Shown here piece by piece: positions 19,040-26,495 of a DNA stretch of 34,081 nucleotides (position 1 is the first letter of the stretch; each line of letters starts with the position of its first letter). Source of the DNA: Acidipropionibacterium jensenii DSM 20535 (GTDB taxonomy: Bacteria; Actinomycetota; Actinomycetes; Propionibacteriales; Propionibacteriaceae); assembly GCF_000425285.1 (NCBI RefSeq), contig NZ_AUDD01000024.1:1-34081 (forward strand), written 5' to 3'. The translations under genes were made by a program, and so were the position numbers. The notes beneath the pieces were generated by a model. It was not told the origin of the DNA. It was given only the letters and a program-made list of their open reading frames with translations, and searched no databases.

Positions 19040-19115
19040 TGGCTCCCCCGACTGGACTCGAACCAGTAACCCTCTGATTAACAGTCAGATGCTCTGCCAA
19101 TTGAGCTACAGGGGA
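19040..19115 (-). tRNA. tRNA-Asn (anticodon GTT)
   Basis: On the minus strand the 76-nt gene folds into a full cloverleaf: acceptor TCCCCTG with CGGGGGA (one T-G pair), D arm with GCTC and GAGC, and anticodon stem TCTGA/TCAGA around loop CTGTTAA (anticodon GTT). The T arm is ACTGG/CCAGT with loop TTCGAGT. The discriminator is G73, normal for Asn, and the CCA end is encoded (19040-19042). Confidence 0.96.
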
Positions 19116-24063: not shown

Positions 24064-24969
24064 GTGAGCGAGACGACGAACACCGATCTGGACTCCTGCT
24101 CCCCGCCACCGGCCGACGGATGGGTGGCACTGACCCCTGCCGGACGGGCCGTGGCGCGGGCGGTGGGCCACGACCCGGCCGGAACCCTGCTGGCCAGCGA
24201 CGTGGACGGCACCCTGTCCCCGATCGTCGCCGACCCGACCAGGGCCGCGGTGAGCGAGCGGGCCCGCCGGGCCCTGGCGGGGCTGGACGGACGGGTCGGC
24301 ACCCTGGCGGTGATCACCGGACGTCCGGTCGCCCGGGCGCGGGAGATGGTCGACGTCGACCGGCGCGGCGGACTGGACCATCTGGTGATGCTGGGTCTGT
24401 ACGGGGTCGAGCGCTACGACGTGGGCACCGGGCAGCTGCAGGTCCCCGAGCCTCCCGCCGTGATGGGGCAGGCCCGCCACCGGCTCCAGGAGGCGGTGGA
24501 CCGAGCGGTGGCCGCCGATCCCGCGATGGCCGGGACGATGGTCGAGGACAAGGGCAGCGCGGTGGTGCTGCACACCCGCCGAGCCGTCGAGCACGACCGG
24601 GCCCTGGCGCTGCTGGGGCCGGTGGCCCGCGATCTCGCCGGGGAGCTCGGGCTGGCCGTGGAGGAGGGCCGCGACGTCGTCGAGCTCAAGGCCTGGCAGA
24701 CCACCAAGGGGGACGCCCTGCGCCGGCTGATCGCCGAACGCATGCCCTCGGTGCTGCTGATGTGCGGCGACGACCTCGGCGATCTGCCGGCGATGGCCGT
24801 CGTCGAGGAGTGGATCGGCGAGGGCAGGCCGGGGGCCAGGGTGGTGTCCTGGTCGGCCGAGCAGCCACGGGTGGCACGGTCGGCCGATGTGCTGTGCGAC
24901 GGCCCCGAGGGAGTGGCGGCGTTCCTCGACGAGATCTCCGGACGGATCACCGAGAGTTCCACAATGTGA
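24064..24969 (+). CDS. otsB: Trehalose-6-phosphate phosphatase
   Basis: This HAD-family phosphatase converts trehalose-6-phosphate to trehalose, completing the pathway begun by OtsA. The 301-residue product has motif I LLASDVDGTLSPIV with the nucleophilic and acid Asp pair (about 44-50), motif II VITGRP, the cap-domain MVEDKGSAVVLHTR typical of OtsB, then DVVELKAWQTTKGDALRRLI and motif IV CGDDLGDLPAM. The GTG start at 24064 fits the leaderless -10 box. Both OtsA and OtsB begin with M-S-E-T by chance or by common origin of the divergent region. No anomalies are seen. Confidence 0.94.
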   Translation: MSETTNTDLDSCSPPPADGWVALTPAGRAVARAVGHDPAGTLLASDVDGTLSPIVADPTRAAVSERARRALAGLDGRVGTLAVITGRPVARAREMVDVDRRGGLDHLVMLGLYGVERYDVGTGQLQVPEPPAVMGQARHRLQEAVDRAVAADPAMAGTMVEDKGSAVVLHTRRAVEHDRALALLGPVARDLAGELGLAVEEGRDVVELKAWQTTKGDALRRLIAERMPSVLLMCGDDLGDLPAMAVVEEWIGEGRPGARVVSWSAEQPRVARSADVLCDGPEGVAAFLDEISGRITESSTM

Positions 24970-25007
24970 TATCAAATCTCAGATTCCGGAAGAAAGCGGC
25001 GAGTTTC

Positions 25008-25037
25008 TTGGCAACCCGATGACCCCGTGCCTAAAGT
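25008..25037 (+). promoter_or_regulatory. sigma-70 promoter of the cysK leader
   Basis: TTGGCA (25008-25013), an 18-bp spacer and TAAAGT (25032-25037) give a good promoter starting near 25044. The -35 is overlapped by the inverted repeat AAGAAA/TTTCTT (24990-25009). The palindrome TGATATCA lies at 24967-24974. Either could be an operator, but I recognise no known one. Confidence 0.65.
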
Positions 25038-25043
25038 GAGACC

Positions 25044-25559
25044 AGTGCTCGACGGCCAGTCCTGAGGACCGCGGTGGTCGCAGGGTCGGGAGCACGTCGA
25101 GGAGAGGACAGCCAGGTGGAGACACGGCGCACCGCAGTGATGGCACACGCATCATGCGTGGTCATGATGTCGATGCCGGCCTGCCGAATGCCCTCCTGTC
25201 CGGTGACCAGCAGCTGTTGCCGCTGAACCCGGTCCTGGACCGATGAGGCCACGGGCAACTCATCTGCGAGCGAGCCCCGATCCCGCGCCGATCAGCCCCT
25301 GGTTGACGGTACCCGGATCACCGGCACTCGGCTCCTGGTCGTCTCGTCAGTACTGCAGACGTCTCGTCGGAACCGGCTGGGCCCCGCAGCCCTCGACCCG
25401 GAGGTCCGGACCAGGCCCTCGCGAACCGATGAGGTCCGACCCGGGCGCCCACCAGTCCTCCAGAACCAGCACACCAGCATCATCACCACGTCATCCGTGA
25501 ACACCCAGACAGTCCCCGAACCCCCGGGGACGCACTACCGCAAAGGACAGCAAGAGACC
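25044..25559 (+). promoter_or_regulatory. Long 5' leader of cysK
   Basis: About 515 nt separate the promoter from cysK. Before the leader peptide, CTCGACG (25048-25054) can pair with CGTCGAG (25095-25101), touching the Shine-Dalgarno site. GTGCTC (25045-25050) can pair with GAGCAC (25090-25095), so the two pairings exclude each other. After the peptide come CGGTC-CTG-GACCG (25230-25242), GGCTG/CAGCC near 25375-25392 and the palindrome GGTCCGGACC (25403-25412). No hairpin with a T run is seen, so Rho-dependent attenuation is more likely than intrinsic termination. No known riboswitch or T-box was recognised. Confidence 0.5.
25116..25226 (+). CDS. Cys/Met-rich leader peptide upstream of cysK (putative cysteine attenuator)
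   Basis: GTG at 25116 with the Shine-Dalgarno GGAGAGGA (25101-25108) 7 nt upstream opens a 36-codon ORF ending at TGA 25224-25226. The peptide has Cys at 14, 23, 28, 34 and 35, Met at 9, 17, 18, 20 and 25, and ends SSCCR. Five Cys and five internal Met in 36 residues is far above any other short frame here, and the tandem Cys codons sit two codons before the stop. A ribosome short of Cys-tRNA would stall there and alter folding or Rho access in the 330-nt leader that follows. Poly-Cys leader ORFs acting this way are known in mycobacteria. ATG 25140 is a weaker alternative start with no ribosome site. Confidence 0.75.
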   Translation: METRRTAVMAHASCVVMMSMPACRMPSCPVTSSCCR

Positions 25560-26495
25560 ATGGCCAAGATCGCCAACGACGTCACCGAGCTCATCGGTGG
25601 CACCCCCCTCGTGAGGATCAACAAGCTCTTCCCCGACGCCAAGGCCACCATCCTGGCGAAGCTGGAGTACTTCAACCCCGCCTCCAGCGTCAAGGACCGG
25701 ATCGCCAAGTCGATCGTCGACGCCGCCGAGAAGTCCGGTGAGCTCAAGCCGGGCGGCACCATCGTCGAGGCCACCTCCGGCAACACCGGTATCGGCCTGG
25801 CCCTGGTCGGCGCGGCGCGCGGCTACAAGGTGATCATCACCCTGCCGGAGACGATGTCGAAGGAGCGTCGCTCGCTGCTGCGTCTGCTGGGTGCCGAGCT
25901 CGTCCTCACCCCCGGAGCCGAGGGCGTCCCCGGAGCCAACAAGCGGGCCGCCGAGATCGTCGCCGAGACCCCCGGATCGATCCTCGCCGCGCAGTTCGAC
26001 AACCCCGCCAACCCGGCCATCCACCACGACACCACCGGTGAGGAGATCTGGGAGGACACCGACGGCACCGTCGACATCCTGGTCGCCGGCATCGGCACCG
26101 GCGGCACCATCTCGGGCGCCGGCCGGTACCTCAAGGAGAAGAACCCCCAGATCAAGGCGGTCGGCGCCGAGCCCGCCGAGTCCCCGGTGATCACCAAGGG
26201 CCAGAAGGCCCCCCACAAGATCCAGGGCTGGGGCCCGGGCTTCGTCCCGAAGAACCTCGACAAGTCGATCGTCGACGAGATTCTCCTGGTGCCCGGCGAC
26301 GAGGCCATCGAGCTGGCCCGTCGGGCCGCCTCCGAGGAGGGCATCATCACCGGAATCTCCGGCGGCGGGGCTCTCCAGGCGGCCGCACAGCTGGCCGCCC
26401 GGCCCGAGAACGAGGGCAAGACGATCGTCACGGTGATCGCCGACACCGCCGAGCGCTACGAGTCCACCGACCTGTTCAAGGGCTACCTCGACTGA
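25560..26495 (+). CDS. cysK: Cysteine synthase A (O-acetylserine sulfhydrylase)
   Basis: This PLP enzyme makes cysteine from O-acetylserine and sulfide. The 311-residue product has ELIGGTPLVRINKL, FNPASSVKDRIAKSIV with the PLP lysine near 44, EATSGNTGIGLALVGAARGY for substrate and phosphate binding, AGIGTGGTISGAGRYLKEKN, and ITGISGGGALQAAAQLA. The usual ending with AERYEST is present. ATG 25560 gives the conserved start MAKIANDVTELIGG. An in-frame GTG at 25497 would add 21 non-conserved residues. Expression is probably controlled by the leader peptide at 25116. Only 6 nt separate its stop from the opposing pdxR stop. Confidence 0.96.
   Translation: MAKIANDVTELIGGTPLVRINKLFPDAKATILAKLEYFNPASSVKDRIAKSIVDAAEKSGELKPGGTIVEATSGNTGIGLALVGAARGYKVIITLPETMSKERRSLLRLLGAELVLTPGAEGVPGANKRAAEIVAETPGSILAAQFDNPANPAIHHDTTGEEIWEDTDGTVDILVAGIGTGGTISGAGRYLKEKNPQIKAVGAEPAESPVITKGQKAPHKIQGWGPGFVPKNLDKSIVDEILLVPGDEAIELARRAASEEGIITGISGGGALQAAAQLAARPENEGKTIVTVIADTAERYESTDLFKGYLD

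Follow-up and report, generated by a model that had tools for sequence, protein, structure and literature searches.

The window is the whole stretch of DNA that was analyzed, 34,081 nucleotides of a contig of Acidipropionibacterium jensenii DSM 20535. It contains cysK, which is preceded by a region with a short Cys- and Met-rich open reading frame (ORF) and, before that, by a trehalose-phosphatase gene (PF02358), and which is followed by a gene for a GntR-type regulator on the opposite strand. The cysK product scored 423.4 bits against TIGR01139 (cut-off 350.95). The coding part of cysK (25560–26492) has zero Cys codons; this would favor its translation during starvation. A tRNA gene at 19043–19115 on the − strand was the sole Rfam match of the window. 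The features of the cysK region are listed below.

25008–25037, + strand: promoter-like site TTGGCA-18-TAAAGT, the sole one found in 24900–25600
25100–25107, + strand: Shine-Dalgarno-like sequence AGGAGAGG of the leader ORF
25116–25226, + strand: Cys/Met leader ORF, 36 codons plus TGA, GTG start
25164–25184, + strand: conserved core Met-Met-Ser-Met-x-x-Cys, the first Met being Ala in two relatives
25215–25220, + strand: tandem Cys codons TGT TGC near the stop, the expected stall site
25227–25559, + strand: untranslated spacer of 333 nt from the leader stop to cysK, candidate Rho-loading region
25560–26495, + strand: cysK, cysteine synthase A (TIGR01139)

The ORF at 25116–25226 translates as VETRRTAVMAHASCVVMMSMPACRMPSCPVTSSCCR and, as an earlier, sequence-only reading of this DNA had described, its 36 codons include five Cys and five internal Met and end in SSCCR before the stop. 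The Shine-Dalgarno site claimed in that reading is also present, but the spacing of 7 nt given for it is wrong: AGGAG (25100–25104) lies 11 nt and GAGG (25104–25107, identified by eye) 8 nt upstream of the GTG. The frame is open further 5′, with another GTG at 25074; alignment with relatives favors 25116 as the start. Shuffled sequence yielded 0.1 promoter-like sites on average, as a control for the site at 25008–25037. If transcription is assumed to start 7 nt past this site, it would begin approximately 515 nt before the cysK ATG (25560). The leader GTG lies 78 nt downstream of the −10-like box and would have some 71 nt of 5′ region ahead of it.

Three of four same-genus relatives could be compared, the contig of the fourth (G003) ending 114 nt before cysK. 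The frame is kept in all three, with the peptides VDIGHTACMAHVDRVAMMSMSTCRSMVPGQCCCR, VDDIRSAGLQNAQCAAAMSMSMCSRPCCRS, and VDDNRSAGLQNAQCAAAMSMSMCSFRCCRS. Besides the start, the residues A7, M18, S19, M20, C23, C34, C35, and R36 are invariant in these leaders, which gives a shared core of MSM..C..CCR. The promoter-like layout also recurs, as TTGGCA-18-TTATCT in G004 and as TTGGAA-17-TTACAT in G001 and G002 (hexamers assigned by eye, spacing computed). In six of six genome pairs, the leader ORF is better conserved than the spacer, with identities of 0.58–0.68 versus 0.40–0.49 in five pairs and of 0.95 versus 0.72 in a close pair.

In a sister genus, g13 (which we take to be Cutibacterium), the leader was found in nine of nine genomes once a longer upstream stretch was read. 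The sequence-only reading would have been refuted had relatives lost the frame or its Cys codons; instead, frame and stop-proximal CysCys are preserved in the three same-genus relatives, and g13 has such a leader throughout. Two hits outside g13 and f7 (presumably Mycobacteriaceae), L253 and L262, and two extra short hits in g13 were set aside as chance. The g13 leader precedes a yeeE-tusA-cysK run in five of the nine genomes (yeeE is shortened in G092; in G016, both PF04143 for yeeE and PF01206 for tusA were matched) and stands immediately before cysK in G095. In the other three, G088, G090, and G093 (loci L266, L268, and L271), short stretches that by eye appear to be yeeE/tusA remnants lie between the intact leader frame and cysK.

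Alignment of eight g13 leaders showed four columns in which all 32 of 32 cells are Cys, although TGT and TGC are swapped in three of these columns, and a fifth Cys column (29) with Cys in six leaders and its loss in two. Many non-Cys residues drift, and a few hardly change. The latter, for example Trp 8 (8/8), would suit a working small protein such as a copper- or thiol-binding Cys/Met peptide, for which gene order would be incidental; peptides that bind Cu(I) typically combine Met with Cys. Against such a product, which we consider improbable, stand the drift that g13 shows at many positions other than Cys and Met (of 280 single-base codon differences between g13 pairs, 180 alter the residue), the variation of Cys spacing between genera, and the fact that the downstream genes are sulfur genes, although the search design ensured the latter. 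Judged from the alignment, Cys residues that are kept while their codons switch and other residues drift are the prediction of a codon-read sensor, the reading that we prefer.

The window sequence by itself is not decisive against chance, because the Cys-clustering score of its ORF was matched or exceeded in 27 of 600 shuffled leaders and on 5 of 120 opposite strands; what decides the matter is the comparison with relatives. Despite the shuffled sequences that score as high, a chance ORF without function is contradicted by a frame that the genus conserves and by the return of such ORFs elsewhere in the family, and we regard it as highly improbable. The family, f1, is presumably Propionibacteriaceae, the family to which Propionibacterium acnes belongs, and the genus of the window presumably Acidipropionibacterium. 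A cysK gene was found at E 1e-100 in 158 of the 198 family genomes searched, and 120 cysK loci, some genomes contributing two, had enough upstream DNA for scanning. A Cys-cluster score of at least 3.5 was obtained for 27 of these 120 upstream regions, as opposed to 5 when the 120 reverse strands were scored and 27 among the 600 shuffles; the other 93 regions stayed below 3.5, partly since the leader sits farther upstream. Several genera of the family have Cys-run leaders before cysK or a yeeE/tsuA-like gene. Outside the family, a scan of 43 of 92 cysK upstream regions gave two weak matches, neither convincing. Within the own genome, TGYTGYTGY occurred at 344 sites versus 430 for the reversed control and was uninformative, and a search with profile A1 returned the window copy only, missing the yeeE leader described below.

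Leaders in the family start in two ways. In 13 of 13 cysK leaders of g8, g11, g16, g17, and g31, a TANNNT box lies 6–7 nt before the start, and these leaders are arranged as leaderless mRNAs would be. Such a box was near the start in 0 of 24 leaders of another group, comprising the cysK leaders of g1, those of g13, and those of yeeE; at least four letters of AGGAGG were present 5–13 nt upstream in 14 of these 24 versus 1 of the 13 TANNNT-type leaders. By its sequence, the window leader is of the Shine-Dalgarno form, not leaderless. Codon choice for Cys was counted in 24 leaders, which contained 69 TGT and 40 TGC (35 versus 13 in the last tandem, repeated tails included). Six leaders of the own genus had 14 of each, as compared with 3 TGT versus 12 TGC in the four genes around the window leader, and UGU is frequent in five presumed mycobacterial (f7) leaders (13 of 18 codons, the other 5 being TGC). 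A preference for TGT may give a sharper response where a single tRNA reads both codons, or it may serve pairing.

A yeeE/tsuA-like gene, 63% identical at the protein level to that of g13, is present on another contig of the own genome, and a second leader of this genome, MTTLGFIPFRTGRSTAARMSCPSCPACMPCLAC, precedes it:

G000:C11, reverse complement of L281, −499 to −397 of the yeeE match: second Cys/Met leader ORF

Its counterpart in G003 is MTTLGIIPFRTGRSTAARMSCRCCPARMSCPAC (L280). The g13 YeeE protein gave a good match to PF04143; it is likely a thiosulfate transporter, a name that is not certain because the score against the NCBI TsuA model is below the cut-off (384.6 of 645). Across the family, a yeeE match was found in 25 genomes, and a Cys-rich leader ORF in 16 of 22 usable upstream regions and in none of the other 6 (L324, L325, and L327 were left out of this count). 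None of the five genomes of the genus combines yeeE with a sulfite reductase domain: G000 and G003 have only the former, and G001, G002, and G004 only the latter. The cysK leader is found in both groups.

The sulfite reductase regions of the three same-genus relatives contained no such leader ORF. From 50 sulfite reductase loci of the family, of which 30 (L328–L357) cover no more than 1500 nt upstream of the domain match, 13 ORFs were listed, and 8 of these were judged real by eye. In f7, five of eight sulfite reductase upstream regions carry a polycysteine ORF. At the g13 locus L361, an ORF ending in MRMRMCCCR and a stop lies 983–863 nt upstream of where the sulfite reductase domain was matched. 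Sulfite reductase genes of g11 and g16 have HVDFARV..CC leaders that resemble those of f7. Among PF01053 loci (metB/metC/metY-type) of the genus, the 7 strongest of 23 matches were scanned without a convincing leader being found; one weak Cys-rich ORF lies 1 kb above one PF01053 locus, L288.

Taken as a leader peptide gene, the ORF at 25116–25226 probably controls cysK through the ribosome in response to cysteine, and the best reading of its wider affiliation is a ribosome-read cysteine leader in a Shine-Dalgarno-led, Met-bearing variant. Transcription would start near 25045, and a ribosome would load behind the Shine-Dalgarno site and translate the 36 codons. When charged tRNA-Cys is ample, the ribosome would reach the stop, leaving the long spacer bare and cysK expression low; when this tRNA runs short, the ribosome would stall at the stop-proximal Cys codons, and cysK expression would rise. 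That stalling at the tandem Cys codons raises cysK expression had been proposed in the sequence-only reading, by analogy to mycobacteria. The conserved frame, the Cys codons, and the recurrence before cysK and yeeE speak for that proposal; the transfer of the mycobacterial mechanism is something that we infer, because the mycobacterial ORFs are leaderless and the ORF of the window is Shine-Dalgarno-led.

How a stalled ribosome would be converted into cysK expression may be envisaged in two ways: (i) it could shield the C-rich spacer from Rho, as in Rho-dependent leaders of the tna type, or (ii) it could disrupt pairing that masks the cysK ribosome-binding site, as in polycysteine leaders of the mycobacterial type. 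A classical trp-type attenuator was rejected: no terminator-like site was found on the + strand in 24900–25600 (one weak site lies on the other strand), and folds are at chance level, with z-scores relative to shuffles of −0.78 for the whole leader and +0.95 for the region after the leader stop. A fold predicted inside the g13 ORF showed compensatory change in 0 of 32 pairs. A riboswitch or other known RNA family was rejected as well, since Rfam at gathering score gave only a tRNA in the window. The first 318 nt of the spacer have a C content of 0.41 and a G content of 0.27. Of 21 leader spacers, 19 have more C than G (mean difference 0.113), versus 49 of 89 presumed leader-free cysK regions (mean 0.015; p = 8e-7, a value that ignores kinship and is based on controls that may be coding). 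This composition would favor Rho as the candidate output, for which we would assume a probability slightly short of even.

Release of the cysK ribosome-binding site is a candidate too, which we hold at somewhat less than an even chance. In the own genus, the only one in which this pairing is favored, the Cys tract is predicted to pair with the site at rank fractions of 0.065, 0.093, 0.219, and 0.119, but the mean over 19 leaders was 0.36, where 0.5 is chance. When a stalled ribosome was modeled, the site opened by over 0.1 for 4 of 13 leaders, of which 3 belong to the own genus; the values for this genus went from 0.43 to 0.59, from 0.52 to 0.76, and from 0.66 to 0.82, with the fourth going from 0.69 to 0.66. 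In g13, an opening by more than 0.1 was obtained for one of nine. One other candidate, a pairing of the Met codons at 25157–25169 with 25478–25490, 70 nt before cysK (12 of 13 positions), was discarded, as by eye it was not seen in relatives.

The Met codons that the sequence-only reading had singled out as unusual are real, in frame, and a trait of the family. In 24 distinct tails of ORFs that had been chosen by Cys alone, Met accounts for 48 of 416 non-Cys residues (11.5%) as compared with 141 of 9931 (1.4%) for the remaining short ORFs in these regions; the Fisher p-values for such comparisons ignore relatedness. In a curated set of 37 leaders, which comprise 36 distinct tails, the numbers are 81 of 619, and 12 of 12 genus-by-gene groups exceed the 1.4% background. 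The curated set was compiled without L016, L186, L148, and the second ORF of L113 and L213, which are unlike the others, without L133 and L162, which share their tail with L132, and without the low scorers L158, L165, L175, L180, and L189. The g13 rows L111–L113 and L117 were exchanged for longer stretches of the same genomes, L003 entered one codon short at the start, which leaves its tail unaffected, and sulfite reductase leaders are not part of the Met count. The omitted odd leaders hold at most one Met, and the unpruned 11.5% is the safer figure. ATG triplets in the 37 leaders fall 82 times in frame 0, 2 times in frame +1, and 6 times in frame +2; because of this concentration in the reading frame, the feature resides in the codons, not in the triplet. 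The tails of presumed mycobacterial leaders (f7) contain Met in zero of five cases. From these sequences, the Met trait is real and lineage-bound.

What the Met codons do is less clear-cut. They may not be sensed at all and may instead tune the stall at the next Cys codon (context AUG-UGU) or be relics of in-frame starts, an explanation that is plausible, if clearly less than evenly probable. The residue directly before the Cys run is most commonly Met (27 of 112, Ala being next with 25), and two of the g13 Met columns alternate with GTG, which is likewise a start codon. However, several Met codons in the window and its relatives lie 3–6 codons before Cys and not adjacent to it, and no Shine-Dalgarno sequence was noticed by eye before the inner ATGs.

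Alternatively, extending the cysteine-leader explanation, the ribosome might slow at Met codons too, so that the leader would report both sulfur amino acids; this idea of an added methionine sensitivity is plausible, but we judge it less likely than not. Leaders that report more than one amino acid exist, such as the enteric thr and ilv leaders; these likewise combine codons for two or more amino acids from one pathway, but differ in the amino acids concerned and in having a classical terminator/antiterminator. The in-frame excess of Met in all groups and its absence from the presumed mycobacterial tails are consistent with dual sensing, as is the recurrence of Met before cysK, before yeeE, and, in five of the eight sulfite reductase leaders judged real (g13, g8, and three of g17), next to the Cys run. 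In addition, SAM-IV was not found in the four genus genomes G000–G003 under strict filters; yet G095 carries SAM-IV and also a Met-bearing leader. Further points against dual sensing are that the g13 Met columns (6/8, 6/6, 7/7, 5/7, and 4/8) are looser than the four Cys columns, that the tail of the g13 leader L271 is free of Met, that three g25 yeeE leaders share a single Met, located after the Cys run, that the three HVDF-type sulfite reductase leaders have no Met near the Cys run, that the strongest PF01053 loci of the genus have no convincing leader, and that the Met counts ignore the kinship of the genomes. Should dual sensing apply, which we hold to be less likely than not, one family would have made the polycysteine leader into a two-letter sensor of Cys and Met, used for cysK, for a yeeE/tsuA-type transporter, and, in some genera, for sulfite reductase.

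A 2005 study predicted leader peptides with Cys runs in Mycobacterium and Propionibacterium acnes, where they precede cys operons, and in Bifidobacterium longum, where the gene is cbs (PMC1262725). Seliverstov et al. proposed Rho for their leaders, weakly by their own word (PMC1262725). As far as described in the parts of that study considered here, the present leaders resemble theirs in being short ORFs with Cys near the stop, located before cysteine genes and lacking a terminator hairpin; the text considered deals with Cys runs only, its three mentions of methionine are unrelated to leaders, cysK is not named, and neither yeeE leaders nor the Met enrichment of the present leaders were seen in it. 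In mycobacteria, cysteine-responsive control by leaderless polycysteine short ORFs has been described (Canestrari et al. 2020, as cited in PMC13236596, PMC9031893, and PMC9094748), and Cys-rich uORFs have been reported, one of them with ribosome occupancy (PMC4633059). To judge by these accounts, a Cys-coded stall near the stop, here a predicted one, and the presence of several sulfur loci per genome are common to both systems. The window leader, too, is a short ORF before a sulfur gene with conserved stop-proximal Cys codons; unlike the mycobacterial ORFs, it has a Shine-Dalgarno-led GTG behind a 5′ region and Met in its tail, and because it is not leaderless it is not classed with them. By its anatomy, it would nonetheless work like the mycobacterial leaders. 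The uORFC-8-2 leader of cysS in Rhodobacterales (PMC8632094), as far as its description goes, is, like the window leader, a short ORF with Cys codons in tandem, but has an intrinsic terminator and two stems, neither of which was found here. A search of the open-licence literature returned no paper dealing with Met codons in leaders of this type, or with a leader before yeeE.

The cysteine part of the leader is of a known kind, predicted earlier in P. acnes, and the in-frame Met enrichment of the family is new as far as the open-licence literature shows. Together, the leaders described here support ribosome-read cysteine control well beyond the mycobacteria, in a family that is presumably Propionibacteriaceae, where cysK and a sulfur transporter are linked under one kind of leader and where a Shine-Dalgarno-led form of this leader occurs beside the leaderless form.
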